The position numbers were made by a program, and so were the translations under genes. DNA of 63,240 bases from Rhodobacteraceae bacterium CG17_big_fil_post_rev_8_21_14_2_50_63_15 (GTDB lineage Bacteria > Pseudomonadota > Alphaproteobacteria > Rhodobacterales > Rhodobacteraceae), in contig PFEY01000014.1 of NCBI GenBank assembly GCA_002783205.1, positions 1 through 63,240 on the forward strand, written 5' to 3'. Under the pieces are notes generated by a model, which saw only the letters and a list, made by a program, of their open reading frames with translations, did not search any database and had not been told where the DNA came from. Below, piece after piece: positions 6,830-63,240 of this stretch; position 1 is the stretch's first letter; every line of letters begins with the position of its first letter.

Positions 6830-6857
6830 GACGCAGCTGAAGCCGACGTGGCAGGCT

Positions 6858-7826: not shown

Positions 7827-7866
7827 AGCCGCAAAGTCTCACCACCTCCGAGCCGCGTCAACCGAT

Positions 7867-7895
7867 TTGCACCCATGCGGCAGCGCGGTTATGCT
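7867..7895 (+). promoter_or_regulatory. Promoter of the xseB-ispA-dxs operon
   Basis: TTGCAC (7867-7872) and TATGCT (7890-7895) with a 17-bp spacer end 34 bp before the xseB start, in the gap to the divergent kinase gene. Confidence 0.5.
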
Positions 7896-7929
7896 GGCGC
7901 ATGACCGCCGCCGCAAGAGGACACAAGCG

Positions 7930-8172
7930 ATGCCTGATACCCCCGCCTCCGAAATGTCATTCGAGCAGGCCATGAAGGAACTCGAACAGGTTGTCGGACG
8001 GCTTGAACGGGGCGATGTGGCGCTTGAGGACTCGATCGCGCTCTATCAGCGCGGTGCCGATCTCAAGAAGCGCTGTGAGGCCAAGCTCAAGGAAGCCGAG
8101 GAAAAGGTGGCGGCCATCACGCTCGATGGCAATGGCCAGCCTGCGAGCCTGCGACCGCTCGAGGGCCTCTGA
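7930..8172 (+). CDS. xseB: Exodeoxyribonuclease VII small subunit
   Basis: An 80-residue protein with the family core SFEQAMKELEQVV and a second helix ALYQRGADLKKRCEAKL, typical of XseB, the small subunit that oligomerises on XseA. Exonuclease VII degrades single-stranded DNA in both directions. The position directly before ispA and dxs is the widespread proteobacterial arrangement. The start ATG 7930 follows AAGAGGACAC. xseA is not in the window. Confidence 0.93.
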   Translation: MPDTPASEMSFEQAMKELEQVVGRLERGDVALEDSIALYQRGADLKKRCEAKLKEAEEKVAAITLDGNGQPASLRPLEGL

Positions 8173-8177
8173 TCCAG

Positions 8178-44648: not shown

Positions 44649-44819
44649 CTATTTCGGTGGCGGCGCGGCGCAATGCCCGCCCGTCGCCGCCAGACCCGAC
44701 CCAAGCGCCAGCATGGGTGGTCCGGTGTAGGGGTTGAGCGGCGTCGACTGCACCTGATCCAGCGCCAGAAGGCCGAGCACCGCCAAAGCCATCAGCAGAG
44801 CGACATGGGAACGTGTCAT
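44649..44819 (-). CDS. 56-residue membrane protein coupled to the YeeE-like transporter
   Basis: A small protein with one hydrophobic segment (HVALLMALAVLGLLALD, residues 5-21) and a short Pro/Gly-rich tail ending HCAAPPPK. Its ATG overlaps the transporter stop (ATGA), so translation is coupled, and it ends three bases from the convergent lipoprotein stop. The hydrophobic segment may be a signal anchor. No family is recognised; the tail Cys could matter for sulfur chemistry, but that is speculation. Confidence 0.6.
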   Translation of the reverse strand: MTRSHVALLMALAVLGLLALDQVQSTPLNPYTGPPMLALGSGLAATGGHCAAPPPK

Positions 44820-45943: not shown

Positions 45944-45951
45944 GGGCCGCC

Positions 45952-48780: not shown

Positions 48781-50037
48781 TTACCCACCGGCTGAAACCC
48801 GGGGTTCGCTGCGGTTGCCAATGCCGGCACGGGCCCTCAGCTTGGCGGCCACACGGCGCGAGACAGGCCAACCAGCATCGCTCAGCCATGCGGCAATCTG
48901 GTCATCGCTCAAAGGTTTCTGCGGCACTTCGGTCGCTATCAGTCGGGCGATCCGGGCGATCATCGCCGGGGCGCTTGTTCCGGCCAGGCCATCATGCCGC
49001 ACGGCCCGGCAAAAGAACCGCTGCAACGGCATGATTCCCTGCGGTGTTGCGGCGGCACAGGCATTGACCATCCGCCCTATCGTGCTCTCATGCAGGCGCA
49101 GCACCCGCGCCACGGCACGCTGCGTCAACGGGCGCTGTGCAATCTCGCCCTGCGACAGAAATGCCCCCTGTTCATGGGCCAATATCTCACCCAAAGCCAA
49201 AAGCGTGAGATTGCGCCGCTCCAGCGCCGTCACAAGGCCATGCGCCTCGCGTCGTGACCGCGACGGGGCGGGATCGCGGCGGCCAGTTGGCCCGACGGCA
49301 CAGGCCATCCATGCCCGTGGCGTGGTGTCGGGGTTTAACGTCACCTGCCAACTCGACCCGTCGCGGACAAAGATCAGATCGGCAACCCTTGTGCGCACCA
49401 TCGCCCCGGCAAAGCACGCCGCCGGGCGCGGATCAAGTCCGCGAAGCCGCGCCAGCCCAGTCTTGACCTCTGCCACACTCAACCCGCTCGCAAGTGCAAC
49501 CGCGTCGATGCCGCCACGCGTCAGCATCGGCAGCACCCTCAGCAAACGGTTCAGGCGGTCCGTTTTCCGCTCTGCCTCGGTCAGTTGCAGGGCAAGACAT
49601 TCAGACACCGACCGCGCAAAGAGCCCTCGGGGCTCGATCCGCTGAAGAGCCCGCAGCACCCCCTCGACGCGCTCTGTTGGAACCCCGCATCTTGCGGCAA
49701 TATCCCTCAGGGGCCGGACCATGAATCCGCCCGAATCGAGTTCCTCGATGATCGCCAGAGCAACCGGTTGATCCGATGCGTCGTGGATCAGAGTTGGCAG
49801 GCAGAGCAGGACATGCTCGTGCAATGTCGGACCACAGGCCGCGGCTTCGGTGGGGGGGGCATCGTTCGGGCGCATCGGCAGGCGCAATTCGAGCCACGGA
49901 TTATCGGCTGCCGCCTCTTCGAGACAGCGGGCAAGCTCGAGATTGCCCGCCGCCATGAACGCAAGTCCAGTCTGCAGATGCGGACTGAGCCCCATCCGAA
50001 CCTGCTGCCGAAGCGCGATGGTCGATCCGAGTTTCAT
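48781..50037 (-). CDS. rpoN: Divergent RNA polymerase sigma-54 factor
   Basis: A 418-residue sigma-54. Region I is recognisable (LRQQVRMGLSPHLQTGLAFMAAGNLELA). The HTH block contains LRLHESTIGRMVNACAAATPQGIMPL. The RpoN box reads SRRVAAKLRA instead of the consensus ARRTVAKYRE, and the protein is shorter than housekeeping RpoN (about 470-500). It follows the amidotransferase gene after nine bases, on the same strand as the P450/glutamine-synthetase cluster. It likely serves that cluster, as specialised rpoN copies do in Rhodobacter sphaeroides. Start ATG 50037 fits the family; GTG 50043 is an alternative. Confidence 0.88.
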   Translation of the reverse strand: MKLGSTIALRQQVRMGLSPHLQTGLAFMAAGNLELARCLEEAAADNPWLELRLPMRPNDAPPTEAAACGPTLHEHVLLCLPTLIHDASDQPVALAIIEELDSGGFMVRPLRDIAARCGVPTERVEGVLRALQRIEPRGLFARSVSECLALQLTEAERKTDRLNRLLRVLPMLTRGGIDAVALASGLSVAEVKTGLARLRGLDPRPAACFAGAMVRTRVADLIFVRDGSSWQVTLNPDTTPRAWMACAVGPTGRRDPAPSRSRREAHGLVTALERRNLTLLALGEILAHEQGAFLSQGEIAQRPLTQRAVARVLRLHESTIGRMVNACAAATPQGIMPLQRFFCRAVRHDGLAGTSAPAMIARIARLIATEVPQKPLSDDQIAAWLSDAGWPVSRRVAAKLRARAGIGNRSEPRVSAGG

Positions 50038-50046
50038 GGTCACAGC

Positions 50047-50748
50047 TTAGGACGCGCGCAGGAGTCCGGCAATGGCACGCGCCACCCGGTCACTGTCCAG
50101 CGCCCCCTCAAGGCCCGCGCGCGCAACAGCCGCCTGCTCGGAGGAAAAACATGCATCAGCAAGCAGATCAGTCATCACCGACGCATCAAATTCAGGATGG
50201 AACTGCACCGAGATGCCCGGAAAATCGGTGTAGAGGAACGCCCCGTTGGGCGACAGGTGATTGCCTGCCAGACGGCGCGCCATGGGCGGTGGCACAATGA
50301 CCTGATCCTGATGCATCGACATCTGCCAGAGCGGATCGGCGCCAAAGATGCGCTTGCCCGGCACCGTCAGGGTCTGCTGCATCCGGCCCAGAACCCAGCC
50401 ACATTCGGCCTTGCGGGCCTCGCCGCCAAAGGCCTGAGCCATGACCTGATGGCCGAAACAGATCCCCGCCAAGGGGCGCTTTTCGCTCCGCAGCCTTTGC
50501 AGAAATGCAATCAGCGGTGCGATCCAGCCGTCATCATCGTAAACACCCACCCGCGCACCGGTGATCAGATAGCCGTCATAGGCCCGAACGGAATCGGGAA
50601 AGGCCATCCCGCCCGCGACATCGAGCGCCTCGAACTCTGCATCCGGCATGGTCGGTTTCAGCCAGCGCCGAAACATCTCTGAATAGGTGCCGTGTTTCTT
50701 CAGAAACGTGCCTTCGGGCCGGTCAACTTCAAGAATGCAAACCCGCAT
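50047..50748 (-). CDS. Class I glutamine amidotransferase-like hydrolase
   Basis: A 233-residue stand-alone class I amidotransferase domain with the triad Cys97 (GICFGHQ), His184 and Glu186 (FHPEF). It is not fused to a synthetase and is closest in type to GMP-synthase-like amidotransferases and gamma-glutamyl hydrolases. With two glutamine-synthetase-like ligases upstream it could remove gamma-glutamyl groups, in the manner of PuuD, although it is a different length and branch. This is inference from context. Confidence 0.82.
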   Translation of the reverse strand: MRVCILEVDRPEGTFLKKHGTYSEMFRRWLKPTMPDAEFEALDVAGGMAFPDSVRAYDGYLITGARVGVYDDDGWIAPLIAFLQRLRSEKRPLAGICFGHQVMAQAFGGEARKAECGWVLGRMQQTLTVPGKRIFGADPLWQMSMHQDQVIVPPPMARRLAGNHLSPNGAFLYTDFPGISVQFHPEFDASVMTDLLADACFSSEQAAVARAGLEGALDSDRVARAIAGLLRAS

Positions 50749-50796
50749 GGATGTCCTTGTCCCTGTCTTTTGTCTGATGGGCGGATCAGAGGTGGC

Positions 50797-51645
50797 CTAC
50801 AGCCTTTTTTCCCGATTTGCGATCACCGCCAGAATGATCAGCACAAGAGAGAACAGGACAATCAGTGTGCCTACCGCATTGATTTCGGGGGTCACGCCGC
50901 GCCGCATGGTTGAATAGATATACATCGGCAAGGTGTTGTCGCGTCCGGTGAGAAAGAAGGTCACGGGAATTTCGTCAAAGGACAGCACGAAGGACAGCAA
51001 TCCCGCGCCAATGACCGCCGAGCGGATATTGGGCAGGGTAATGTGAAAGAAGGTATGCACCGGCGACGCACCAAGATCGGCAGAGGCTTCCTCGAGCGAC
51101 TTTGGCAGCCGTTCGAGCCGCGCCGATACCTGCGTGACCACGACCGCCAGAAGCGCCGTGGCATGACCCAGAATCACCGTCTCCAGGCTCAGGTTGAACC
51201 CCAGAAGGCGGAACAGGTTGAGCATGGAAATGCCGGTCACAACGCCGGGCAAGGTGATCGGCAGAACCACCAGCCGCCGGAACAGTTTCTTGCCGGGAAA
51301 ATTGATCCGGTGCAGCGCGAGCGCAGCCGGCACCCCGACCAGCAGGGTCAGCACCGTCGCGCAACTCGCCACGTAAAAGCTGTTGCCGATCGCATCGAGG
51401 AGCTGCTGATTGTTCCACAGCTTGACATACCAGTCCAGCGTGAAGCCGGACAAAGGCCAGGTCAGTGAACGTGAATCGTTGAAACTGAAGATAATCAGCA
51501 CCCAGATCGGGATGTAGAGAAAGGCCATCAGCAACGCCACAAAGGTCGCAAAGGCCGTATCGGCCGCATAGCGGTTGAGCGCGGCGCGCGGGGGTGAGGC
51601 GCGCGAACCAGTGCCGACGATGCTGGAAGCGAGGGGCGTGCCCAT
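50797..51645 (-). CDS. ABC transporter permease, PotC-like
   Basis: A 282-residue inner-membrane permease with six hydrophobic segments and the coupling motif EASADLGASPVHTFFHITLPNI (EAA loop). It begins one base after the stop of the PotB-like gene, with AAAGGA upstream. Together with the other three genes it forms a complete spermidine/putrescine-type importer. The N-terminus (about 35 residues) is polar. Confidence 0.92.
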   Translation of the reverse strand: MGTPLASSIVGTGSRASPPRAALNRYAADTAFATFVALLMAFLYIPIWVLIIFSFNDSRSLTWPLSGFTLDWYVKLWNNQQLLDAIGNSFYVASCATVLTLLVGVPAALALHRINFPGKKLFRRLVVLPITLPGVVTGISMLNLFRLLGFNLSLETVILGHATALLAVVVTQVSARLERLPKSLEEASADLGASPVHTFFHITLPNIRSAVIGAGLLSFVLSFDEIPVTFFLTGRDNTLPMYIYSTMRRGVTPEINAVGTLIVLFSLVLIILAVIANREKRL

Positions 51646-51646
51646 G

Positions 51647-52513
51647 TCATGTTTCCTTTGGCGAATAACGTCGCTCGACCCGGTCAGAGAGCGACAGGAC
51701 GGCCAGCACGATGACGAGGACAAAGATTGCCAGAGCCGATCCCATGGGCCAGTTCAGGGCCGTGCCGAATTGCGTGACAATCACGTTGGCGACCAGATTT
51801 CCGTCCGGTCCGCCGACAAGGAAGGGCGCGACGAAATCGCCGAACGTCAGGCAAAAGGTCATGGTGAACCCCGCTGCAACGCCCGGCATCGACAACGGCA
51901 GAATGATCCGCAGGAAGGTCGGGATCGGGCGCATTCCCAGATCACTTGACGCCTCGATCAGGTTGCGTGGGATCTTTTCCAGCGCGGTGTAGATGGGCAT
52001 GACCATGAACGGGATGAAGATGTAAGTCAGCGTCACAACCATCGCAAACTGGTTGTAGAGAAAGATGTCCGACGGTTCGGACAGGACGCCCACGTTCATC
52101 AGAAACGAATTCAGGATTCCCTCGGTGCCGAGGATCGTTTTCCAGACATAGGCCCGCAACAGGTAGCTGACCCAAAGCGGCGCGATCACCGCCAGATAGA
52201 GCCAGGTGCGCAAGGCCGATGATTTGCACCGCAGGGCGAGGTAGTAGGCGAACGGATAGGCCAGCAGGAAAGCAAACAGCGACACCAGCAACGACACCTT
52301 GAGCGTCCGCATGAGAACCCGGAAATACTGCGGATCCACAAAAAGGGCGAGGTAATTCCCGAACTGGAAGCCCGGCACAAAGGTCGGATACTGCTTGGTC
52401 CAGAAGCTGTATGTGAAGATGATGGCGTAGGGCAGCAGCATGAAGACCGTGATCCAGAGGAGCGGAACGCCGAACACGGCCACGCCAATGGCGCGATCTC
52501 TGATCGGGGACAT
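51647..52513 (-). CDS. ABC transporter permease, PotB-like
   Basis: A 288-residue permease with six membrane segments and the EAA loop IEASSDLGMRPIPTFLRIILP. The start overlaps the stop of the ATPase gene (TGATG); a GTG just upstream is also possible. It pairs with the PotC-like permease to form the channel of the importer. Confidence 0.92.
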   Translation of the reverse strand: MSPIRDRAIGVAVFGVPLLWITVFMLLPYAIIFTYSFWTKQYPTFVPGFQFGNYLALFVDPQYFRVLMRTLKVSLLVSLFAFLLAYPFAYYLALRCKSSALRTWLYLAVIAPLWVSYLLRAYVWKTILGTEGILNSFLMNVGVLSEPSDIFLYNQFAMVVTLTYIFIPFMVMPIYTALEKIPRNLIEASSDLGMRPIPTFLRIILPLSMPGVAAGFTMTFCLTFGDFVAPFLVGGPDGNLVANVIVTQFGTALNWPMGSALAIFVLVIVLAVLSLSDRVERRYSPKET

Positions 52514-53604
52514 CACAGCGTCCCCGCGTCAAAGACAAAGATATTGCCCGCCGACAGCGCCATGCGCACACGCTGCCCCACCCGCGGCACCGACGTGTTG
52601 GCCAGCCGATCAGGTAACAGGCTGTCAACGTAAACGGTGGCATTGCCGGGCACCGCAACCGACAGGCGCAGACCCAGACCATAATAGACCACTTCGGCGA
52701 TCTCGCCCGCGAAACTGTTCGGCGCGTCCTCCCCGTCGGCCAGAATCCGGATCTTTTCGGGGCGAAATCCGATCGTGATCGCCTCGCCGACCGCTCTGGG
52801 CTGATCGACCACCGCATCCAGTTCGTCCCCGGCAACAGCCACCCGCGCCTGATCGCCGGACATCGCCACAATCTGCGCCGCAAGAAAATTCGTCGTGCCG
52901 ATGAAATCCGCCACATAGGGCGTGGCGGGATGGTCATAAAGGCGGTCCGGGCTGCCCGCCTGCGCCACACGTCCCGCCTGCATGACAACAACGCGGTCCG
53001 ACATCACCAGCGCCTCGGTCTGGTCGTGAGTGACCATGACGAAGGTGATCCCGACCTTCTCGTGCAGATGCTTCAATTCCAGCTTCATCTGATCGCGCAA
53101 CTTGGCATCCAGCGCCGAAAGCGGTTCATCCAGCAACAAGACCTTGGGGCGCCGCACGATCGCCCGCGCCAGGGCGATGCGTTGGCGCTGCCCCCCCGAC
53201 AATTGATGCGGACGCTGGTTCACCTTGTCGGCCAACCCCACCAGATTGAGCGCATCCCCAACCGATTTGGCAATCTGCGCGGCATCCAGTTTCATCTGCT
53301 TTAGGCCGTAGGCTATGTTGTCGCCCACGGTCATGTGGGGAAAGAGCGCATAATCCTGAAACACCATGTTTACATCGCGTCTGTAGGGCGGGGTCCAGGT
53401 GACATCCTGCCCATCCAGCCGGATCGAGCCCGAACTGGGCTCTTCGAACCCGCCGATCATCCTCAGCAAGGTGGATTTGCCGCAGCCCGATGGCCCCAGC
53501 AGGGTGACAAATTCGCCGTCCTCGATCGAGAATGACACATCATCAACCGCCATCAGAGTGCCGTAGCTTTTGCACAGCCGCTCGAGTTCTATGATCGAGG
53601 CCAT
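52513..53604 (-). CDS. ABC transporter ATPase, PotA-like
   Basis: A 363-residue ATPase with Walker A GPSGCGKST (residues 37-45), signature LSGGQRQRIALARAI, Walker B VLLLDEPLSALD and H-loop VTHDQTEAL. A C-terminal TOBE domain spans about residues 280-360. This architecture is typical of polyamine/spermidine, iron and glycerol-phosphate importers, and the neighbours indicate the polyamine branch. It is separated from the binding-protein gene by 79 bp with a stem-loop. Confidence 0.93.
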   Translation of the reverse strand: MASIIELERLCKSYGTLMAVDDVSFSIEDGEFVTLLGPSGCGKSTLLRMIGGFEEPSSGSIRLDGQDVTWTPPYRRDVNMVFQDYALFPHMTVGDNIAYGLKQMKLDAAQIAKSVGDALNLVGLADKVNQRPHQLSGGQRQRIALARAIVRRPKVLLLDEPLSALDAKLRDQMKLELKHLHEKVGITFVMVTHDQTEALVMSDRVVVMQAGRVAQAGSPDRLYDHPATPYVADFIGTTNFLAAQIVAMSGDQARVAVAGDELDAVVDQPRAVGEAITIGFRPEKIRILADGEDAPNSFAGEIAEVVYYGLGLRLSVAVPGNATVYVDSLLPDRLANTSVPRVGQRVRMALSAGNIFVFDAGTL

Positions 53605-53632
53605 CTTGCCTCTTCTCCTTCATGTTGAACAG

Positions 53633-53658
53633 AGCGCGGAACCAGAGAGCCCCGCGCT
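53633..53658 (-). other. Intercistronic stem-loop between binding protein and ATPase genes
   Basis: AGCGCGG (53633-53639) pairs with CCGCGCT (53652-53658). Such hairpins after binding-protein genes often stabilise the upstream message or lower readthrough, which would raise the amount of binding protein relative to the membrane complex. There is no T-tract. Confidence 0.45.
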
Positions 53659-53683
53659 TTGCTCGTCTGTGGCAAATTCCCGG

Positions 53684-54721
53684 TTATTGAGCCTTCACGC
53701 CATTCCAGGCGTTGAGATAGGTCTCGAACCGGTCGCCAAGCGGGGTCCAGATCATCAGGCTGTCAAGATAATCGGGATCGTCCTGATGCAGCGCGGCAAA
53801 CTGCTCTGGCGCCATGCAGGCCTTTGCTGCGGCCGGATTGGCGGCGGAATAGCCGTTCACATTGGCCACACCGCATTGTCCCAGTTCTGACAATTGCATG
53901 TTCAGGAATTTGTAGGCGCATTCGCGGTTTGGTGTGCCTTTGACAACCATCCAGGCGTCCAGCCAGCCTTCGGCCCCTTCCTCGGGAATGAATTCCGTCA
54001 CCTTGATCCCTTCATCGGCCAGGAGCGACGACTGATAGCCCGCCCAGGTGTTCGAGATCACCACTTCGCCGGCCTTGTAGAGATCGACCAGTTCGCCCGC
54101 AGTTGACCAGTATTTGCGCACCAGGGGCTTTTGCTCGACCAGGCGCTGCTTGGCTGCTTCGATCTGCTCATCGGTGAGGTCATAGATGTTCATGTCGCCG
54201 TTCAGACGCGCGGCCACGTAGACCGAACTCTTGTCATCCCAGAGTGAGACCTTGCCGGAACTTTTCGCATCCCAAAGCGCCTTGATCGAGGTCGGCGGAG
54301 TCTCGAAGGCATCGTCGCGATACATGAACGCAATCGCGCCCCAGCTATAGGGCATCCCGTAATACTGACCACCCTCCTGAATGCCGTCGAGCGCGAGAAA
54401 CTTGGGATAGATATTGTTCCATTCGGAAATGGCGGCGGTGTCCAGTGGCTCGACAAAGCCAAGGTCGATCATGAGTTGGGTGGTATCGATAGAGGGGGTG
54501 ATCAGGTCATAGACACCGCCGCCGGCCATCATCTTGGGCGCAAAATCGTCATTTGAACCGACATAGGTTGCATTCACCGCGCAACCGGTTTCTGCGACAA
54601 ACTTGTCCAGGAACGAGGCATCCGCATAGCCCTCCCAAGTCAGGACATTGATCGTGCCCTCGGCAGCGAGCGGCGCGGCGGTGAGCATCAAGAGTGCGGA
54701 TAGTGCCAGTTTGCGTGTCAT
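53684..54721 (-). CDS. Polyamine-type ABC substrate-binding protein, PotD-like
   Basis: A 345-residue periplasmic protein with a signal peptide (residues 1-20, ending LAAEG). The mature start TINVLTWEGYADASFLDKF is characteristic of the PotD/PotF family. Its ATG overlaps the stop of the sigma-54 activator gene (ATGA). In PotD proteins acidic and aromatic residues line the amine pocket; several Trp/Asp/Glu are present here, but the ligand cannot be named. Its position inside the cluster suggests the imported amine is the substrate of the P450 or the ligases. Confidence 0.92.
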   Translation of the reverse strand: MTRKLALSALLMLTAAPLAAEGTINVLTWEGYADASFLDKFVAETGCAVNATYVGSNDDFAPKMMAGGGVYDLITPSIDTTQLMIDLGFVEPLDTAAISEWNNIYPKFLALDGIQEGGQYYGMPYSWGAIAFMYRDDAFETPPTSIKALWDAKSSGKVSLWDDKSSVYVAARLNGDMNIYDLTDEQIEAAKQRLVEQKPLVRKYWSTAGELVDLYKAGEVVISNTWAGYQSSLLADEGIKVTEFIPEEGAEGWLDAWMVVKGTPNRECAYKFLNMQLSELGQCGVANVNGYSAANPAAAKACMAPEQFAALHQDDPDYLDSLMIWTPLGDRFETYLNAWNGVKAQ

Positions 54722-56115
54722 TCTTCGTCTCCTCTGTTGAGTTTTTTGGTCTTTCGGGAAATAGTGCCGATATCGACACCAAGGGCGACAGCGGCCTTGC
54801 GCTTGCTGCCATGGATACGGATCGCCTCTTGGATGACCCGTAATTCAAATTCCGACACGGCGTCCCGCAGAGGACGGCCGCTCAGTGACAGATAGCCGCC
54901 GGTTGCGTCTGGGCAGGCCAAGAGCGCATCGCTTGGCATCGCGCGCAAGGCCTCTGGCAACTCGTCGTCCTGTTCGCCCAGAACCGAAATCTGCTGCATC
55001 AGGTTCCACAATTCACGGATGTTTCCGGGATAGCGATAGCCGCGCAGTCTTGCGCGCATATGCTCGGACAGCCGCATTGGCATCGTCCGCCGATTGTTGA
55101 TCATCGAGAGGAAGCGGTCGATCAGATGATCGATCAGTTCCGGCATCTCGCGCAATGGCAGGATCGGCAATTGCACGACCGCCAGCCGGTAATAGAGATC
55201 AAGCCGGAATTCACGCCGTTCCGCCATCTCCAGCAGATCGCGATTGGTGGCCGAAATCACGCGCACGTTGGCCGGTCGCGGGCGGGTGCCGCCGATCCGC
55301 GTGACCACTCCGTCCTCAAGGTAGGACAGCAGCTTGGCCTGGAGTGGCAGGGGAATCTCGCCAACCTCGTCCAGAAACAGGGTGCCCCCCTCTGCGGCCT
55401 CGATCAGCCCCTTCTTGCCCTCTTGCGCCGCCCCGGTGAAGGCCCCCCTTTCATAGCCGAACAATTCGGACTCAAAGAGGCCTTCGGGGATGGCGGCGCA
55501 ATTCACCACGATGAAGGGATCCGTCGCGCTGGCCACGAAATGATGCAGATGACGGGCAACCTCGGTCTTGCCCACACCCGACTCGCCCGTGATGATCACG
55601 CGCGCGCCTTGCAAGAACGCCCGCTCGCCACGGGACAGGATCCGGTCGAGCGCGCCAGAAATGTTGCGCTGGCGGGCCAGATCCGGTCGCATCCGGTGAT
55701 CGGCTGCCGGCGCCAGAGGCGCGAACTGACGCCGCCCCTCGGCTTGTCGTCGGACGTGATCGAGCACCGTCAGATCCCGCAACTGCAAGAGATAGCCGCC
55801 CGCGGCATCCGCAGGATCGATCCGCCGGAGCGAGGCCAGCACCGCTCCGACCGGATCGCACCGCAGGATCACATTGCCGTTGCGACCGCCTTCGATCATC
55901 TCCTGGAGCACGGTCCAGTTCAGATTGCCTTCACGACAGAGGGCGGCGAAACTCATCCCCTGCACCCGCTGCGGATCTATCCCCGAGATCACCCCCGCCA
56001 CCCGGTTGAACACGCCGACGCGCCCATCGCCGTGCAGATGGATGAGTCCGTCCGGAAGCGCATCGAGCGCCGATGACAGGTCAGGATCGTGCGACGGATT
56101 GGTCGATGCGATCAT
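54718..56115 (-). CDS. Sigma-54-dependent transcriptional activator (PAS-AAA+-Fis)
   Basis: A 465-residue enhancer-binding protein. The N-terminal PAS domain covers about residues 13-120 and the AAA+ domain about 155-385. Walker A is GESGVGKT (177-184), GAFTGA is intact at 224-229 for contact with sigma-54, and Walker B is GTLFLDE. The C-terminal Fis-type HTH is RKAAVALGVDIGTISRKTKKL-like. No receiver domain is present, so activation is probably through the PAS domain or the adjacent PAS protein. It is in the same operon as the transporter and close to a dedicated rpoN. Confidence 0.92.
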   Translation of the reverse strand: MIASTNPSHDPDLSSALDALPDGLIHLHGDGRVGVFNRVAGVISGIDPQRVQGMSFAALCREGNLNWTVLQEMIEGGRNGNVILRCDPVGAVLASLRRIDPADAAGGYLLQLRDLTVLDHVRRQAEGRRQFAPLAPAADHRMRPDLARQRNISGALDRILSRGERAFLQGARVIITGESGVGKTEVARHLHHFVASATDPFIVVNCAAIPEGLFESELFGYERGAFTGAAQEGKKGLIEAAEGGTLFLDEVGEIPLPLQAKLLSYLEDGVVTRIGGTRPRPANVRVISATNRDLLEMAERREFRLDLYYRLAVVQLPILPLREMPELIDHLIDRFLSMINNRRTMPMRLSEHMRARLRGYRYPGNIRELWNLMQQISVLGEQDDELPEALRAMPSDALLACPDATGGYLSLSGRPLRDAVSEFELRVIQEAIRIHGSKRKAAVALGVDIGTISRKTKKLNRGDEE

Positions 56116-56130
56116 CGCGCGTCCCCTCTC

Positions 56131-57321
56131 CTATTCCTGACCGCCGCTCATGGCGGCGCTGCGGGCGGTCTTGATGTCACGCGCCATGCCCAGCCGCAAG
56201 CGCAGGCTGATCGCAAGACAAGGCCTCCCCCGCAAGCTCAGGCTCCGCACCGCAACGCCCGCCGTCGCGCTCTGGCCTCCGGCCCGGAATGCCACCGACA
56301 GAACCTTTGGCGGGTGGCCGGGTATCTGACTCTCTGCAATGGTGAAAAGATCCTTCATCGACAACGGCAGTGTCACGAGATCGCCCAGCCCATGCTCCAT
56401 CAGCACGTCGCGCGGCACGTTGAACAGTTCCTCGGCGGCACGATTTGCATGGATCACCCTGCCGTCCTGCTCGACCACCAGCAAAGCGTCGGGCAACGCC
56501 TCGAGGATCTCCTCCAGCATCCCGATCCGATCGCTCAAGACAGCGGTGCGGCGGGCGTATTTCGACACGTCCCGCACCGTGCCCCACATCCGATAGAGCA
56601 GGTTGCCACGGATATGGCTGCGCACGTCATTCTCGACCTCGATAAAGGCTCCGTCATAGCGCAGATCACGCGAGGGCGATCCGTCAACATCGAAATTGCC
56701 ATGAATCAGATTGCGCACGAACTCTTCATTGCTGCGGGTCCGAGGAAAGGTTTCATGCACCGGGCGCTGGTTGAAATCCTCGCCCTCGGGGGTTCGGTAA
56801 AGCCGCGCCATCGCGCCGTTGCAAAAACGCCATCTTGGACCGTTTTCAAATACTTGCCGGATGATTTCCTGTTCTGGTGCCGAGAGATCGACGGGATCGC
56901 GCCACTCCATGCACCAGCCCGCGTCATTGGAGGTTTCGAGAATCGACGCGCGCATCTCGTTCTCTTCGGTCAACCGCGCCAAATCCTTCAACGCCCCGCC
57001 CTGCTGCCATTTCACGGTGCGCAGGCAGCGCGTGCCATCTGCGGCGTTGATCAGGGTTGCGATCGCCGTCGTGGTGATCACGCCGCCGGTCACATCGCGC
57101 AGATCGAGACTCAGAACATGGGGCCCCGGATCACTCTGCGCAAAGATATGCTCCAGCCGTTCGCGCGCGGCCAGCGGATAGATCAAGGACCACTCCCGCC
57201 CCGCAGCACGCCCCGGCGCAAGACCGAGCCGCGCTTCCTGTGCCGGACAAGCGTGGACAATCCGTCCGTCCTGCGCCAGCAGGTCGGTCATTTCGACAGG
57301 GATTTCGGGCGAGAGGTCCAT
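56131..57321 (-). CDS. PAS-domain protein without output domain
   Basis: A 396-residue soluble protein. A clear PAS domain lies at about residues 255-330 (LEALPDALLVVEQDGRVIHANRAAEELFN), with a second, weaker PAS-like region around 120-230. No kinase, HTH, GGDEF or AAA+ domain follows. It is encoded 15 bases upstream of the sigma-54 activator, which has its own PAS domain, so it may act as a sensor or anti-activator for it. Start ATG 57321 has GGAG six bases upstream; ATG 57327 is too close to that site. Confidence 0.75.
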   Translation of the reverse strand: MDLSPEIPVEMTDLLAQDGRIVHACPAQEARLGLAPGRAAGREWSLIYPLAARERLEHIFAQSDPGPHVLSLDLRDVTGGVITTTAIATLINAADGTRCLRTVKWQQGGALKDLARLTEENEMRASILETSNDAGWCMEWRDPVDLSAPEQEIIRQVFENGPRWRFCNGAMARLYRTPEGEDFNQRPVHETFPRTRSNEEFVRNLIHGNFDVDGSPSRDLRYDGAFIEVENDVRSHIRGNLLYRMWGTVRDVSKYARRTAVLSDRIGMLEEILEALPDALLVVEQDGRVIHANRAAEELFNVPRDVLMEHGLGDLVTLPLSMKDLFTIAESQIPGHPPKVLSVAFRAGGQSATAGVAVRSLSLRGRPCLAISLRLRLGMARDIKTARSAAMSGGQE

Positions 57322-57349
57322 TCTCATCTCCGGCGACCGGCGTTGCGCT

Positions 57350-58867
57350 TTACGGGACACAGTGCAGATACCGCTCCACATCCCAGTTGGTGACTTCGCG
57401 CAGGAACCGCGTCCATTCGTCCTGCTTGTACTCGTCATATACCTCATAAAGACGCCCCGGCAGAGCAGAACGAATGACCTCGTCCTTCTTCAACGCATCC
57501 AGCGCATCCCTGAGGTTGAGAGGGATAAGGCTGACATCTCCGCCCGATTGCCAGACCTCGGTGACGTTGCGCGACTCAGCCGGGCCAGGGTCAATCCTGT
57601 TGAGGATGCCGTCATCCATCGCCTTCAGCAATGCCGCACAGAAAAGATGCGGATTGACCATGCTGTCAACGGCCCGGAACTCGAACCGGTCCGGCGAAGA
57701 AATGCGGATGGTGCAAGAGCGGTTCTGCAACCCCCAATTTGCCCCGATCGGGGCCCAGAGCCCATAACCGTTGAAGCGTCGATAGGAATTCACGGTTGAC
57801 GCTCCGATCGCGGTGAGCGCACCGATATGTTTCAGCGAGCCGCCCAAGACCCAATGACCCAGTTCTGTCGGCAACCAGCCGCCATCGGTATTCTCGAACC
57901 CATTGATGCCACCCTTGGAATACATGAAATTCTCTTCCATGCCGGGAAGCTCGCCGGACACCAGATGCTGAACCTCGCGCGTGCCGCCGGTCCAGACCGA
58001 ACAATTGTGGTGACAGCCGTTTGCCGCGTAACCCATGAACGGCTTGGCCATGAAACAGGCAATCAACCCGCGCTGACGCGCGACCTCGGCACAGATCTGG
58101 CGATAGGTGGTCATCCGGTCGCAGGTCGCCACGGTGTCGTCGAACTGATAATTCAGCTCGATCTGGCCCGGTGAATCCTCGCAGTCGCCCTGAATCATGT
58201 CCAACCCCATCGCCAGCGCGTAATCCGACACCTGCTTCCACAGGTCGCGGGCGCTCTCGAACTGGCCGATGTGATAGGCCAATGGCTCGGTCACGCCTTC
58301 ATAGGGCTGCACCGCATCCTCCTTGGGACGCAACCACACCATTTCCGGCTCCAGTCCGACGCGAAGATGCAGACCACCATGCGCCTCGCGGAACTCTCGA
58401 TCAAAGCGTTTCAGATTTCCACGGGTGTCGTATTCGTAATGTTGGCCGGCAAAATTCGGATCTTCCAGGCTGTAGAACAGGGTGCAGAACACGCGCCCTA
58501 CCCGCTTGTCCCAGGGCAGTTGCATGAAGGTTTCCGGATCGGGCAATGCGATGCACTCCATCGCATTCGAATCAAACCCGATCAGATTGCCTTGGAAATC
58601 CGGCAGCACGTTGGTCACGCCCCCCATCCAGGTCTGCACCCCCTTGCGGGCTTGGGTTTCCCAATGGCGCGATGGCGCGGCCTTGCCCATCACGCGGCCC
58701 GTGATCGAGATGTATTGGTAATAGATATAATCGATCCCGAGCGCGTCGATCTTCTTGCGGACACGGTCCACCCGCTCGGCGCGGCCTGACGCCTCGACGG
58801 CGCGGTGATAATCGGTGTCGGTTCCCTGCGGCTTTGAAGGTCCGCCACTGCGGATTTGCGGGCTCAT
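57350..58867 (-). CDS. Glutamine synthetase family ligase 1 (gamma-glutamyl amide ligase)
   Basis: A 505-residue GS-fold enzyme. Metal and substrate residues are visible: GLEPEMVW (first Glu pair), GDCEDSPGQIELNY (second Glu pair), GCHHNCSVW (His) and the FEFR segment near residue 418. The N-terminal about 40 residues extend beyond ordinary GS. It belongs to the branch that includes GlnT and gamma-glutamyl-amine ligases such as PuuA, GMAS and IpuC, which couple ATP hydrolysis to joining glutamate with an amine. A second, quite different GS-like gene lies just upstream. GGGAG precedes the ATG. Confidence 0.88.
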   Translation of the reverse strand: MSPQIRSGGPSKPQGTDTDYHRAVEASGRAERVDRVRKKIDALGIDYIYYQYISITGRVMGKAAPSRHWETQARKGVQTWMGGVTNVLPDFQGNLIGFDSNAMECIALPDPETFMQLPWDKRVGRVFCTLFYSLEDPNFAGQHYEYDTRGNLKRFDREFREAHGGLHLRVGLEPEMVWLRPKEDAVQPYEGVTEPLAYHIGQFESARDLWKQVSDYALAMGLDMIQGDCEDSPGQIELNYQFDDTVATCDRMTTYRQICAEVARQRGLIACFMAKPFMGYAANGCHHNCSVWTGGTREVQHLVSGELPGMEENFMYSKGGINGFENTDGGWLPTELGHWVLGGSLKHIGALTAIGASTVNSYRRFNGYGLWAPIGANWGLQNRSCTIRISSPDRFEFRAVDSMVNPHLFCAALLKAMDDGILNRIDPGPAESRNVTEVWQSGGDVSLIPLNLRDALDALKKDEVIRSALPGRLYEVYDEYKQDEWTRFLREVTNWDVERYLHCVP

Positions 58868-58902
58868 CGGTATCTCCCTTCTGAATGCGTTGTGATTGGT
58901 GT

Positions 58903-60219
58903 TCAGCCTTCAAGGTATCTGGCGCGTTCCTCAGCGCTTACGGCGCGGGTCAGGCTGGCGTATTCGGCCCGGCAGGCGGTCACAAAATTCTCGGTAAAGC
59001 CGGTGCCGAAAATTCTTCTGGCATGCGTCGAGACGGCCAGCCTCTCGGCCGCTTCGGCCAGATCACGCGGAAAGCGCTGCGCGCCTTCGGGCACCGTATC
59101 GGGGCCCGCGGCCTCGGTTGCGGGCGGCGCGACCAGACCGCGCTCGATCCCGTCCAGCCCCGCCCCCAGCATCAGCGCCAGGCTCAGGTAGGGATTGCAG
59201 TCGGCGGGCGGCACGCGGAATTCCAGCCGAGCGCGCGGACCGTGATGCGGGACCGAACGCACCGCGACGGTAAAGGGATACTCCGCCCAGGTCAGCGACT
59301 TTGGCGCCCAGCTTCCCGGTGCCAGCCGGCGATAGGCGTTGACCGAGGACGTGCACATCGCAAAGGCCTCGGGAACGATCTCCATCATCCCCGAGATGAA
59401 GGACCGAGCCAGCGCATTGGTGGTTCCAGATGGGTCGGAAAACAGGTTTCTTCCGCTTTGCGCGTCGCGCAGCGACAGCACGCAATGCCCGCCGATGCCG
59501 GGGTATTCTTGGCCCAGATAGGGCATGAAACTGGCGGTCTTGCCTTGCTTGCGGGCATAGGATCGGGCCGCCATGCGCAGGAAGCAGGCATCATCTGCCG
59601 CGCGCAGCCCTTCGCTTGCCGCCTGCGTCAGCTCAAGACAGCCCGGTCCCAATTCGACCCCGAGCGCATAGAGCGCCACGTCATGGCCCAGGATTTCCGC
59701 CTCCATCCCGGCGATGAATGCAGCATGGGTGTTGGCAGTGGCCCCCGACCAGCATTTGTTGTCAGGGGCAAACTTGGCCAGACCTTCAAACCCCTTCTGA
59801 CGCACCGTCGCGGCATCTTCGTCCAACACCAGCACTTCGAATTCAAAGGCCGCATCAACCTTGTATCCCAGGGTGGCTGCGCGCTCGATCTGTCGGCGCA
59901 GCACCTGACGCGGCATCAGATCCCGCGCGGGACCGGACAATTCGGCGATCACCGTTACCGCCCCCGGCTCTGACGGGTTGCGCCGCATCGAGGAGGCATC
60001 GATCTCAACCGTCTCGGTAAAGAACTTGCTTCCCCCGAACAGCGTATCGGCACTGTCCCAATAGGCGAGCACATTGGCAAAGCGCGGATCTCCCGCCCAA
60101 TCCAGAAACTGTGCGCGCCGCAGACGCCGTTCGCGAAAGACGGCGCCATAGTCGAACTGGCCAACATGCACGATTTCGGCTTCAAATCCTTCGAGGGCTT
60201 GGGTCAGGGTCTCGGTCAT
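58903..60219 (-). CDS. Glutamine synthetase family ligase 2
   Basis: A 438-residue GS-fold protein only distantly related to its neighbour. Catalytic residues are conserved: FEFEV (first Glu pair), ELGPGCLELTQ (second pair), GGHCVLSL (His) and RLEFRVPPADCNPYLSLALML. The length is close to PuuA-type gamma-glutamylpolyamine synthetases. It lies 10 bases after the reductase gene in the same run. Two unlike ligases in one operon suggest either two amine substrates, two steps, or a hetero-oligomer. Confidence 0.88.
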   Translation of the reverse strand: MTETLTQALEGFEAEIVHVGQFDYGAVFRERRLRRAQFLDWAGDPRFANVLAYWDSADTLFGGSKFFTETVEIDASSMRRNPSEPGAVTVIAELSGPARDLMPRQVLRRQIERAATLGYKVDAAFEFEVLVLDEDAATVRQKGFEGLAKFAPDNKCWSGATANTHAAFIAGMEAEILGHDVALYALGVELGPGCLELTQAASEGLRAADDACFLRMAARSYARKQGKTASFMPYLGQEYPGIGGHCVLSLRDAQSGRNLFSDPSGTTNALARSFISGMMEIVPEAFAMCTSSVNAYRRLAPGSWAPKSLTWAEYPFTVAVRSVPHHGPRARLEFRVPPADCNPYLSLALMLGAGLDGIERGLVAPPATEAAGPDTVPEGAQRFPRDLAEAAERLAVSTHARRIFGTGFTENFVTACRAEYASLTRAVSAEERARYLEG

Positions 60220-60229
60220 CTCTTGGTCC

Positions 60230-61459
60230 TCATGCGGTTACAGGCGACGAGAGCGCCCTGGTCAGACGGGTGGCATGGCTGGCGAGGGTCGCGGGCGGCG
60301 CACCGATGCCCGTGATCGCGACGGGCTGTCCGGCGCGGCGGTATTCGACGATGACGGGCCCCTCGCCGATCTGAGCAAGATCGCCCGCGATCACGCTCTG
60401 ACTGTCGGCCAGAACCGGGGCACCATAGGATTGCAGACGCAAACCATACTGATCGCTCCAGAAACTCGGCATCGGGGCAAAGCCTGCCGATGGCTCCCGG
60501 CCGGTCGTGATGGCGCTGATCGTCTCGGCGGCGCGGCGTGCGGTCTGGCCGGGGACGCACCAATGTTCGGTCCGGCGCGGCACGCCATCAAAGAGCGAAT
60601 TGGGGAATCGCGCGACATCGCCCACCGCGAGCAGGGTCTCGACCCCTTTGGCGATCATCCGGTCATCGGTCAGCACACCATCGCTCAGATCGGCCCCGCT
60701 GCCCTCCAGCCAGCCGACATTCGGTAGCGCGCCCAAGGCTTCGACGATGACATCCGCCTCCAGCCTGTCGCCGTCATCGAGAACCACGTGATCGGCCGCA
60801 AAATCGGAAACGGTCCGCCCGGCATGGATCCGCACGCCGTGTCTGCGGTGCCATGCGGCCATCGCGGCAGCCACCCGCGACCCCAGAGCACGCAGCATCG
60901 GTTGCGGTTCGGTCTCGACGAGATCGACATGCAGACCGAGGCTCCGCGCCGTCGCCGCAATCTCGCAGCCGATGAACCCGCCCCCGATCACCACCATCCG
61001 TGCGGACCGGCGCAAGGCTAGGGCCAGCCGTTGCGCATCCTCAAAGCTACGCAGGACGTAACGCCGGTCCTGCGCCCCCGTGAGCGGCAAACGGCGCGGA
61101 CTCAATCCGCTCGCCGCCACGATCCAGTCTGCATTGATCCGGCTCCCATCGGCAAGGATCAGTTGCCCCTCCCGCATCCCGGTGGCAACACAGCCAAGAC
61201 GCAGTTCGGCATCCTGCGGTGTCAGTTTGCTGCGCAACAAGAGCTTGCCAAACACGTCCTTGATATCGGCAGGGCTGGCGGCCAGCGCCGCGATTGCGTC
61301 TTTCGAGAGCGGCGGTCGGTTATAGGGGCGATGGGTCTCGCGGCCGACCAGAACGATGCGCGCCTCGGGCAAGGCCGCCTTGATCGCCTCGGCAGTGCGA
61401 AGCCCGGCGAGCGACGCCCCGACGATCACGATGCGAGGGGAAGGTGTCACAACCGGCAT
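60230..61459 (-). CDS. FAD-dependent ferredoxin reductase
   Basis: A 409-residue NAD(P)H:ferredoxin reductase of the putidaredoxin-reductase type. It has FAD motif IVGASLAGLRTAE (residues 12-24), then the RPPLSKD loop, NAD motif VVIGGGFIGCEIA and the AVGDVARFPN segment. It should pass electrons from NAD(P)H to the 3Fe-4S ferredoxin encoded immediately upstream. Its ATG overlaps the ferredoxin stop (TGATG). The long frame extending upstream of this start runs across the ferredoxin gene and is rejected. Confidence 0.92.
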   Translation of the reverse strand: MPVVTPSPRIVIVGASLAGLRTAEAIKAALPEARIVLVGRETHRPYNRPPLSKDAIAALAASPADIKDVFGKLLLRSKLTPQDAELRLGCVATGMREGQLILADGSRINADWIVAASGLSPRRLPLTGAQDRRYVLRSFEDAQRLALALRRSARMVVIGGGFIGCEIAATARSLGLHVDLVETEPQPMLRALGSRVAAAMAAWHRRHGVRIHAGRTVSDFAADHVVLDDGDRLEADVIVEALGALPNVGWLEGSGADLSDGVLTDDRMIAKGVETLLAVGDVARFPNSLFDGVPRRTEHWCVPGQTARRAAETISAITTGREPSAGFAPMPSFWSDQYGLRLQSYGAPVLADSQSVIAGDLAQIGEGPVIVEYRRAGQPVAITGIGAPPATLASHATRLTRALSSPVTA

Positions 61460-61644
61460 CAGGTGATCACGATGGCCTGCTCGGGGCAGGCATCCGCAGC
61501 GGCCTCGGCCTCGGCGCGCAGCCCTTCGCCGGGTTCCGCGATCCAGACCAGATCCCCCGCGGTGCCGAAAGAGAACAATTCGGGCGCCGCGATGACGCAT
61601 TGACCATGCAACAGACAGGCGTCGCGATCGACCTCGATGCGCAT
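61459..61644 (-). CDS. 3Fe-4S ferredoxin, P450 partner type
   Basis: A 61-residue ferredoxin with Cys10, Cys16 and Cys53 (CLLHGQC and ACPEQ) and His13 in place of the fourth Cys, the usual pattern of 3Fe-4S ferredoxins that serve bacterial P450 enzymes. It lies between the P450 and reductase genes, giving a complete class I P450 electron chain. AAGGAG precedes the ATG at 61644. Confidence 0.9.
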   Translation of the reverse strand: MRIEVDRDACLLHGQCVIAAPELFSFGTAGDLVWIAEPGEGLRAEAEAAADACPEQAIVIT

Positions 61645-61678
61645 CCTCAGACTCCTTCCAGAGAACAGGTCCGGCGTG

Positions 61679-62881
61679 TCATGCCGGGTCAAAGGCAATG
61701 GGCATGGCAATCGCGCCGGTATTGCCACTATCGGGCAACCATTCGACCTTGCCAGCGTAGCGAGGGTTCTTCAGGCGCTGCGCGAGCAGCTTCAACGCCT
61801 CGGTCATGTCCCCCCGGGCGATGAAATGTCCAAGACAGTGATGCGCCCCGCCGCCAAATCCGAAATGCGGTGCGCGACGGGCCGAGATGTCAAAGCCGGG
61901 GTCGGGAAACACCGCCGGATCAGACGCCGCCGATTGCGACAGCAGATGCAGCGTCGTGCCCGCCGGAATATCGGTATTGTTATAGGCAAAATCCTCGGTC
62001 GCCTCGCGCGTGACCCAGGTGACCGTGGGGCGCACGCGCATGACTTCTTCAACCGCCGCGCGGGCCAGTTCCGGGTGTTGCCCGAGCAGCGCCCATTGCT
62101 CGGGATGCTCGATAAAGACCGCCATCGCCAACCCCAACTGGTTGCGGGTCGTGTCGATGCCGCCAAAGATCGCCAGCACGATCATGTCGAGCAGTTCCTG
62201 ATCCGAAAGCTGATCCTTGTCCCTGTTGGCGGCGACCAGTTCGCCGATGAAATCGCCGGACGGATTGGCCCTGCGCTCTTCGGCCAGTTCGGCGGCATAG
62301 GCATAGAGCCGCGTGGTGGCCGCGTCGATGGTCTCGATATCCTGCTTGAACGTCACCCCCAGCGCGAGCCCCATGTCGGCCGCGATATCGGCCAGTTCAC
62401 GCCAGCGCTCGAACGGCAGGCCCAGCAGGTCGCAGATCACGCCCGTCGCGTAGGGTTCGGTGAACGCGCCGATGAATTCGCATTCGCCCCTTGTGACGAA
62501 AGCGTCGATCAATCTGCCCGCAAGCGTGGTGAATCTCGGTTTCAGATCGGCAATCAGTTTGGGTGAAAAGGCCGGGTTCGCGATCCGGCGCAGTCGGGCA
62601 TGAGAGGCGCCCTCCTGGCTCAACAACATGTTTTCCCACCAACCGGCAAAGACGCCACTCACCCCATTATGGCTGGGCCAGCGATAGGATCCCTGCCGAA
62701 GACTTGGATGACGCAGCAATTTCTGAACGTCGTCATAGCGCAGCACGGCCAGACCATAAGGCGTATCCGCGCACCAATGCGCGTCCCTCGCCAATGCAAT
62801 CGCGTCTGATCGCACTGAAAAATGCGGGTCGGCAAGATCCAGAAACGGTTTTGCCTCGTGAAACGGTCCGGTATCAGACAT
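61679..62881 (-). CDS. Cytochrome P450
   Basis: A 400-residue soluble P450. The heme-binding signature FGFGGGAHHCLGHFIAR has the thiolate Cys349. The I-helix oxygen-activation motif is AIFGGIDTTRN and the ExxR motif is in VEEVMRVRP. It should mono-oxygenate a small organic substrate, probably hydroxylation or N-dealkylation of an amine, judging from the polyamine-type importer and gamma-glutamyl ligases in the same run. Mycobacterial morpholine/piperidine clusters also combine P450, ferredoxin, reductase and a GS-like gene. It is the first gene after the sigma-54 promoter. Confidence 0.92.
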   Translation of the reverse strand: MSDTGPFHEAKPFLDLADPHFSVRSDAIALARDAHWCADTPYGLAVLRYDDVQKLLRHPSLRQGSYRWPSHNGVSGVFAGWWENMLLSQEGASHARLRRIANPAFSPKLIADLKPRFTTLAGRLIDAFVTRGECEFIGAFTEPYATGVICDLLGLPFERWRELADIAADMGLALGVTFKQDIETIDAATTRLYAYAAELAEERRANPSGDFIGELVAANRDKDQLSDQELLDMIVLAIFGGIDTTRNQLGLAMAVFIEHPEQWALLGQHPELARAAVEEVMRVRPTVTWVTREATEDFAYNNTDIPAGTTLHLLSQSAASDPAVFPDPGFDISARRAPHFGFGGGAHHCLGHFIARGDMTEALKLLAQRLKNPRYAGKVEWLPDSGNTGAIAMPIAFDPA

Positions 62882-63240
62882 CCAGCAATGCTCCCTGCAA
62901 CACGTCAGCGTGCCTTGGAATCAAGGATGCAAGTTTCGTTCCAGAATTGAACACCCGATGCCAAAATGATGATATCAGACGAAATTTATCCTGGGTTCCG
63001 GATCAGGATCGCGATGGTCCAAAGAATTCCCCCCCCCGCGCTGCGCCTGATTGCTGCAATCTTGCAGATCTGCTGCACAACAACATCGCCGCCGATGATC
63101 GCAACCGGGTGCAAGACAGGCCCGGTCATCGCCCGCCGCTCGGGGCGCAACCTGTCCTGCGCATTTTCGTCGATAGATCGTCCGTGCTGTGCGCGGGCCT
63201 GGTGCCGCAGCGAGGCCATTGACCGAATGTGATCACCGTC
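62882..63240. other. Region upstream of the P450 cluster to window edge
   Basis: Apart from the sigma-54 promoter this 359-bp stretch holds no gene I can support. There are palindromes TGATATCA (62970-62977) and ATCGCGAT (63009-63016) that might belong to an activator site, and a run of C at 63031-63038. Overlapping frames on both strands reach the edge; none resembles a known family. Confidence 0.55.
62928..62943 (-). promoter_or_regulatory. Sigma-54 (-24/-12) promoter of the P450 cluster
   Basis: On the minus strand TGGAACGAAACTTGCA matches the TGGCACG-N4-TTGCA consensus at all but one fixed base, with the GG and GC at the required 10-bp spacing. The predicted start lies near 62917, 36 bases before the P450 start codon. 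It agrees with a sigma-54 factor and a GAFTGA-bearing activator in the same run. Confidence 0.75.

Follow-up and report, generated by a model that had tools for sequence, protein, structure and literature searches.

A conserved, probably amine-catabolic operon of a Rhodobacteraceae bacterium with a probable sigma-54 switch of its own

The closest described counterparts of the gene cluster analysed here are the pip and mor operons of mycobacteria and the Ipu clusters of Pseudomonas KIE171 and Paenarthrobacter TC1. According to the available parts of the pertinent papers, morpholine was oxidised by MorA (AAV54064.1) together with its partners, induction on piperidine was seen for PipA (AAD28344.1), and Gulosibacter has, as implied by locus tags, two units of P450, ferredoxin, ferredoxin reductase and glutamine synthetase (GS)-like genes (PMC9477822); a mycobacterial CYP151-ferredoxin-GS operon is also cited (PMC10516948), and two CYP151C members are tabulated in Alphaproteobacteria (PMC8197338). 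The cluster lies in a stretch of 63,240 nucleotides (the window) on contig PFEY01000014.1 (C12) of Rhodobacteraceae bacterium CG17_big_fil_post_rev_8_21_14_2_50_63_15 (assembly GCA_002783205.1; 3.34 Mb, 94.5% complete). It encodes a P450 system, two GS-like ligases (GS1 and GS2), an ATP-binding cassette (ABC) importer, an amidotransferase-like hydrolase, a PAS protein, a sigma-54 activator and RpoN itself, and its sequence, taken together with that of its relatives, indicates that it is probably an amine-catabolic operon carrying its own sigma-54 switch.

Compared with these systems, the enzymes form a new combination of known parts and their chemistry is known in kind from mor/pip and Ipu, whereas the private sigma-54 control would be the unusual part. 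As in the window, P450, ferredoxin, reductase and a GS-like gene adjoin each other in the mycobacterial operons, and the P450 family is apparently related, but regulation in the portions of the reports consulted is of the PipR type and not by sigma-54. These operons presumably hold a single GS-like gene and neither an ABC importer nor an amidotransferase. Ipu shares the GS-like ligase, P450, ferredoxin, reductase and an amidotransferase-type hydrolase; it differs in having an amino-acid permease in place of the ABC importer, one ligase per cluster and a P450 that is 25% identical over part of its length, and no sigma-54 gene is among the 18 annotated features around the Ipu cluster. As far as their partial descriptions go, the aniline and 1-naphthylamine dioxygenase systems (AtdA1-A5, NpaA1-A5) share a glutamyl organic amide synthetase, a hydrolase resembling glutamine amidotransferases (GAT) and an oxygenase, but the last is a Rieske dioxygenase and the substrates are aromatic amines. 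The Puu pathway of Escherichia coli consists of a gamma-glutamyl ligase, the aldehyde dehydrogenase (ALDH) PuuC and a gamma-glutamyl hydrolase. Ligase, hydrolase and, in relatives only, a PuuC-like ALDH are shared by the cluster, which however has no PuuB-type gene, a hydrolase of another family and a binding-protein site that is not polyamine-like. An earlier reading of the sequence alone (the first-pass annotation) had proposed import of an amine, P450 attack, gamma-glutamylation and hydrolysis, a plausible scheme with close precedents. Its remark that no system with the full set had been described goes too far for the enzymes, most of which Ipu already combines, but is apt for the second ligase, the ABC importer and the sigma-54 module, which Ipu lacks; no description of the whole gene set was found in the open-licence literature searched. 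Having a second ligase in a P450-glutamylation pathway, the enzyme set could also help to reveal the purpose of the glutamate tag.

In most accounts sigma-54 is a common factor on which many activators draw. A single RpoN is the rule among organisms and several are the exception, as stated in the part of a survey that was available (PMC12316311), and the accessible portion of another describes dedicated pairs in Cereibacter sphaeroides, namely RpoN1-NifA, RpoN2-FleQ and RpoN3-AprX (PMC11999139). The likeness to the window is that one RpoN copy is paired with one activator for one task, here known from genomic co-occurrence. In C. sphaeroides, however, four RpoNs coexist and the tasks are nif, flagella and xrpA, whereas here the sole RpoN found lies inside the row that it is predicted to transcribe and would serve amine catabolism. 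The principle of a dedicated RpoN-activator pair is not new, but its setting and all-in-one packaging were not found described in the literature searched. Factor, activator, sensor-like protein and one clear promoter would form one unit with a catabolic pathway, and some relatives lack this unit as a whole. Such a natural system could serve to study by what route a sigma factor turns private, whether the DNA-reading part of RpoN evolves in step with the -24 element, and whether switch-like behaviour results when an operon encodes its own sigma factor and activator.

Open reading frames and profile searches delimit thirteen consecutive genes on the minus strand, in the order P450, ferredoxin, reductase, GS2, GS1, PAS protein, activator, solute-binding protein, ATPase, permease 1, permease 2, amidotransferase and rpoN (62881 down to 48781; Table 1). 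The first-pass annotation had given twelve minus-strand genes and a divergent rpoN. The gene types, their coordinates and the span of 48781-62943 stand, but the count does not: rpoN (50043-48781) is on the same strand as the thirteenth and last gene, and the gene on the opposite strand is a convergent GMC oxidoreductase. The genes are closely packed as described, with several overlapping start and stop codons and a widest gap of 79 nt between the binding protein and the ATPase, and a GG-N10-GC site indeed precedes the row. The contig ends only 359 nt upstream of the P450 start. Read at its longest, the PAS gene overlaps GS1, but residues 1-47 of this reading are modelled with a pLDDT below 50 and a start at the ATG at 57327 abolishes the overlap. 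For the ferredoxin the ATG at 61644 is probably the start, giving 61 amino acids whose Cx5C...CP spacing, judged by eye, fits a 3Fe-4S cluster.

A scan of genome contigs with GS1 yielded at least 80 loci, and the window proteins were then used as queries on the 80 listed. P450, GS2 and GS1 occur in that order in 34 of them, a recurrence that points to more than chance, and 30 of the 34 also have the PAS protein and a GAFTGA-type activator. One further locus (L064) begins inside GS2, so that the position of the P450 falls outside it, while the remaining 45 have a GS1 relative of about 50% identity and no match to P450 or GS2; in two of these (L099, L070) the neighbours resemble, by eye, a set that we take to be of the N-methylglutamate synthase type. 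The usual order in Rhodobacterales is P450, ferredoxin, reductase, GS2, GS1, PAS protein, activator, binding protein, ATPase, permease, permease, in some cases ALDH, GAT and rpoN. Four loci gave no match to ferredoxin, reductase, PAS protein, activator or rpoN: L053, the two Roseovarius loci (L052, L078), which belong to the genus group of the window, and L142 from a Ruegeria plasmid. The plasmid does carry a 2Fe-2S ferredoxin gene of its own, and a divergent gene of the Lrp type is present in L142 and L052. A Rhizobiaceae locus that keeps GS2 and GS1 (L057) encodes, in a frame of 996 amino acids (5605-8592), a fusion of the P450 with a CysJ/CPR-like reductase, a self-sufficient form replacing ferredoxin and reductase, and the spacing between P450 and GS2 is similar in L056 and L058-L063. 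Matches to GS1 with E <1e-200 occur in 5 of 394 sampled family genomes, and matches of at least 80% identity in 3 of 84 genus genomes, the own genome included in both counts. Judged by this comparison, the operon is real and conserved but patchy in its spread. A related cluster is carried by a plasmid of Paracoccus sp. TOH; the literature searched on this strain, seen in part, consists of papers on polymer production, in which no amine substrate was found.

For each relative, the P450 start was placed from the tblastn alignment and the DNA just upstream was scored for a sigma-54 site (GG-N10-GC) with a threshold of 11 out of 15. All 31 loci with a visible activator (the window and 30 relatives) have a site at or above this threshold at -43 to -66, the lowest scores being 11 (L038) and 11.5 (L041 and L055), and a site is also present in L054 and L143, where the activator is cut off by the end of the contig or of the fetched stretch. 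It is absent from all five distinct loci without activator, namely L052 and L078 (each also present in a second copy, L191 and L190, respectively), L053, L142 and L133, where P450 and GS1 form a pair and GS2 is lacking. At the fourth letter of the -24 element, A is found in 15 of the 16 loci with an RpoN from the larger cluster subclade, L055 having T instead. All four loci that belong to the smaller subclade (L048-L051) have C there, as do all 11 loci without cluster-type RpoN (L043, L045, L056-L063, L065); close relatives inflate these counts, and only the pattern is claimed. A strict link between a Tyr-to-Leu/Ile exchange in the RpoN box and TGGAAC was discarded, as L198 (locus L044) and L207 (locus L054) keep KYR and their loci have TGGAAC. 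The activator has GAFTGA in 30 of the 31 loci, the window among them, and GSFTGA in L051.

The RpoN of the window has its three domains and the RpoN box VSRRVAAKLRARAGI but scores under the NCBIfam cutoffs, and is hence a divergent member of its family. It is the single Sigma54_DBD match in its genome, and when it was used as query against 71 other genomes of the genus, matches came from 11, in one case as a weak fragment only. A cluster rpoN occurs in 21 loci (the window, L032-L038, L040, L041, L042, L044, L046-L051, L054, L055 and L065), of which L042, L051 and L054 were assigned from an RpoN on another contig together with the later genes of the cluster; L039 was left outside these counts. 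In 8 of the 21 genomes (G000, G524, G526, G527, G528, G529, G534 and G547) no RpoN was found besides that of the cluster, which also holds for the carriers Thioclava pacifica and Salinihabitans flavidus, and the two Roseovarius genomes (L052, L078), which have the enzymes but no activator, gave no RpoN match. A tree was built from 55 RpoN rows, mostly those of cluster genomes together with a few others from within the genus, and leaving out the distant RpoNs L007-L017 and L019-L031. In it, one clade (100/97) unites 20 cluster RpoNs and contains no other row. Nineteen of these are linked to the cluster and are counted together with L207 from locus L054, which is directly preceded by ALDH and GAT genes; the cluster RpoN of Oricola (L065) falls outside. 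Ciceribacter naphthalenivorans has a second, short RpoN (L210, G549:C6:61625-62086) about 15 kb past GS1, on a contig whose length equals that of the contig with the cluster.

The PAS protein is modelled as three PAS folds joined by helices, with a mean pLDDT of 76.8 and a pTM of 0.40, which leaves the domain arrangement unsure, and neither profiles nor the model revealed a kinase or helix-turn-helix (HTH) domain. Its first fold match is PpsR without its HTH, with TM-scores of 0.23-0.27 that limit the likeness to the level of single domains; NifL-NifA (9qq6) is also listed. The pairing of a PAS sensor protein with a sigma-54 activator resembles NifL-NifA, but the window protein has three PAS folds and no kinase-like part in its model, and the resemblance is claimed for the pairing, not for sequence kinship. 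The protein was dropped as a marker of the cluster, as 6 of 394 family genomes carry a shorter relative away from it. At these loci a neighbour resembling a bacterial enhancer-binding protein (bEBP) is visible in five of six cases (L240-L244), never with GAFTGA, the sixth being cut by a contig end, and four of the six genomes gave no RpoN match (one is 78% complete) while two have one. The PAS-bEBP pair thus looks like an older module, with the motif for sigma-54 contact confined to the cluster version.

Among the enzymes, the P450 is 56, 54 and 51% identical to P450s on plasmids of Gordonia KTR9 (pGKT2), Streptomyces clavuligerus and Rhodococcus opacus, respectively, and its nearest PDB entries are 3p3l/3p3o. 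A GS1-like gene (39%) adjoins the Gordonia and S. clavuligerus P450s. The former lies upstream of a flavin adenine dinucleotide oxidoreductase and a second P450 and is annotated only as P450; we assume that it is the cyp151C beside xplB and xplA. On two Streptomyces plasmids, relatives of 47-48% identity form a P450-ferredoxin-reductase trio between ectA and the ectoine synthase gene ectC (L221:6354-10089, L222:6361-10120), an arrangement which suggests an oxidised ectoine-like product. At L233:8784-14491, another genome of the genus to which the window belongs contains a second P450 (49%). Its neighbours are a GMC oxidoreductase (37%), a gene resembling hydrolases and, directly adjoining, a relative of GS1 (50%); no GS2 or sigma-54 genes are found on that contig.

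The best PDB match of GS2 is glutamate-methylamine ligase, and the identity to IpuC of strain TC1 is 33% for GS2 and 25% for GS1. The metal, ATP and glutamate residues, whose roles we presume from bacterial GS, are kept in every row displayed. In contrast, the flap Glu is replaced in all 38 GS2 rows and all 39 GS1 rows (second copies of the window, L052 and L078 included), so that an organic amine would be a more fitting substrate for both ligases than ammonia. Both CFGH and HPEF are present in the amidotransferase of the window and in all rows displayed (nine per motif, of 22 aligned). The window protein is 30% identical over 173 residues to one glutamine amidotransferase gene of TC1. The importer, called polyamine-type in the first-pass annotation, is indeed PotD/YdcS-like by sequence. 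In an alignment of its binding protein with 26 others (including second copies of L052 and L078), however, every row readable at these places (26 or 27 of 27) has W-E-G-Y, DDKS and TW(A/G)GY in place of three out of four acids and retains only the fourth, in W(L/M)D. We take these four positions to be the polyamine contacts of PotF, and their replacement makes polyamine an unlikely cargo. In 16 of 35 loci (the 34 and the window) an ALDH of at least 60% identity to the L032 copy lies either after GS1 or in the stretch from permease to GAT, and in 7 of 35 one of about 39% follows GS1, which makes 23 of the 34 relatives in all. PuuC is the best NCBIfam model for the ALDH of the relatives, below its cutoff, and the best match to it elsewhere in the own genome is 40% identical.

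In the mechanism that we propose, the PAS protein, NifL-like in logic, would let the activator work upon an amine or redox cue, and the activator and the encoded RpoN would fire the single promoter before the P450. Both lie in the row that they fire, so that expression would feed itself. A small secondary or cyclic amine would be imported and hydroxylated by the CYP151-like P450 at the carbon next to nitrogen; one GS-like ligase, or the two of them, would cap the nitrogen of the opened amino-aldehyde with glutamate, the aldehyde would be oxidised by the PuuC-like ALDH in many relatives and here by another ALDH or the GMC enzyme, and the amidotransferase-like enzyme would finally release amino acid and glutamate.

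As for control, the idea of a linked system under a dedicated sigma factor, already put forward in the first-pass annotation, is backed by the comparison. Where one of promoter, PAS protein, activator and RpoN occurs, so do the others, and they are also missing jointly; the exclusivity of RpoN in this genome fits an operon under a private, self-feeding sigma-54 circuit. Several points weigh against such privacy. First-order random resamples of the upstream DNA reach a score of 11 in 6-118 of 500 trials (67 for the window); a single site is therefore weak, and consistency across loci is what counts. The loose pattern TGGMACN5TTGCW has eight matches genome-wide (four for the reversed control), one at the cluster and seven outside it (by an overlap check only), any of which might mark a second target. 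Six further activator-like proteins are encoded in the genome, five without the motif and one, of the response-regulator type, with GAFSGA (L145, G000:C71:36520-37020), which might use the cluster RpoN, and two weak AAA matches elsewhere likewise allow for a second RpoN target. A second rpoN could be missing from the incomplete assembly. It is nevertheless very unlikely that the linkage is incidental, with rpoN merely part of a travelling island and serving other promoters or persisting as a relic. This reading would account for the loose sites elsewhere, for the 10 of 31 activator-bearing loci without cluster rpoN (L043, L045, L056-L063) and for the further RpoN matches in 13 of the 21 genomes with cluster rpoN, but the genomes of those 10 loci all have another RpoN, the cluster RpoN retains its activator-, core- and DNA-binding domains (AID, CBD and DBD) in a clade free of non-cluster rows, and promoter, activator and rpoN are jointly missing in L052 and L078. 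Beyond the private circuit, a stronger version is conceivable, though we regard it as doubtful: a travelling, self-amplifying circuit in which an operon-only sigma-54 lineage, its -24 taste drifted to TGGAAC from TGGCAC, would form a channel orthogonal to the housekeeping RpoN and would make genomes otherwise without sigma-54 into users of it for one operon, which reads an amine via a three-PAS sensor.

As for the chemistry, our tentative preference is that the P450 first attacks a small amine, secondary or cyclic, followed by glutamylation, aldehyde oxidation and amide hydrolysis, since the P450 is close to actinobacterial P450s, two of them with a GS-like neighbour, and only 25% identical to that of Ipu. 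The label CYP151-like is given by resemblance, the P450s compared being those named above and not PipA or MorA. Less in keeping with this order are the lack of a visible GS2 counterpart beside the two actinobacterial P450-GS1 pairs, and the ALDH, which was not seen in 12 of the 35 loci (the window and 11 of the 34 relatives, among them L039, which is cut before the place). Glutamylation might instead come first, as in the Ipu and aniline pathways: a primary amine would be imported and glutamylated, the P450 would oxidise the gamma-glutamyl amide and the amidotransferase would free the hydroxylated amine. Ipu of Arthrobacter TC1, with the gene order GAT-P450-ferredoxin-reductase-ipuC, glutamylates before the P450 acts (PMC6776027, seen in part), the dioxygenase of 1-naphthylamine and aniline degradation requires its amine in glutamylated form, which a GAT-like enzyme hydrolyses (PMC11335346, likewise in part), and GS2 is the ligase nearer to IpuC. 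We still consider this order rather unlikely here, as the Ipu P450 of TC1 aligns with that of the window over 240 residues at an identity too low for an Ipu-type enzyme, and the two nearer P450-ligase pairs carry a GS1-like and not a GS2-like ligase. Polyamine catabolism, a Puu-like putrescine or spermidine route with the P450 replacing the oxidase, is improbable: the PotD/YdcS-like binding protein, the PuuC-like ALDH of the relatives and the amidotransferase agree with it, but the binding protein has lost most of the presumed polyamine contacts, the hydrolase belongs to PF00117 and not to Peptidase_C26, which we take to be the family of PuuD, and none of the 13 genes encodes a PuuB-type oxidase. 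The P450-first order on a small secondary or cyclic amine thus stays the one that we prefer.

Table 1. Features of the operon and the adjoining gene in the window.
Feature	Position	Strand	Evidence
Sigma-54 (-24/-12) promoter TGGAACGAAACTTGCA	62928..62943	-	Score 14/15; 62 nt before P450 ATG
Cytochrome P450, 400 aa, CYP151-like by resemblance	61679..62881	-	Pfam p450; identities to actinobacterial P450s
Ferredoxin, single-cluster type, probably 3Fe-4S	61459..61644	-	Fer4_15/Fer4_13; Cys spacing by eye
NAD(P)H:ferredoxin reductase	60230..61459	-	Pyr_redox_2, Reductase_C; best NCBIfam model HcaD, under its cutoff
GS-like ligase 2 (GS2), 438 aa	58903..60219	-	Gln-synt_C
GS-like ligase 1 (GS1), 505 aa	57350..58867	-	Gln-synt_C; type III GlnT model under its cutoff
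PAS protein, three PAS folds in model	56131..57327	-	PAS families; AlphaFold model
Sigma-54 activator (bEBP) with GAFTGA	54718..56115	-	Sigma54_activat, AAA lid, HTH
Periplasmic solute-binding protein, PotD/YdcS-like	53684..54721	-	Profile matches and alignment
ABC importer ATPase	52513..53604	-	ABC_tran, TOBE_2
ABC importer permease 1	51647..52516	-	BPD_transp_1
ABC importer permease 2	50797..51645	-	BPD_transp_1
Class I glutamine-amidotransferase-like hydrolase, putative gamma-glutamyl amide hydrolase	50047..50748	-	GATase PF00117; CFGH, HPEF
rpoN, sigma-54, 420 aa, final gene of the row	48781..50043	-	AID, CBD, DBD domains
GMC (choline-dehydrogenase-like) oxidoreductase, convergent, membership uncertain	47170..48780	+	GMC_oxred N and C

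The end of the GMC gene abuts the rpoN stop codon from the opposite strand. It was dropped as a fixed part of the cluster, as no match longer than 150 residues was found in the other cluster loci; an apparent match of 69% in L133 is a fragment at the end of that locus, and the full gene is 37% identical. Beside the GMC gene, positions 44816-46893 of the window encode a rhodanese-like protein and a YeeE/YedE-like membrane protein which, judged by eye, probably form a separate sulfur unit.

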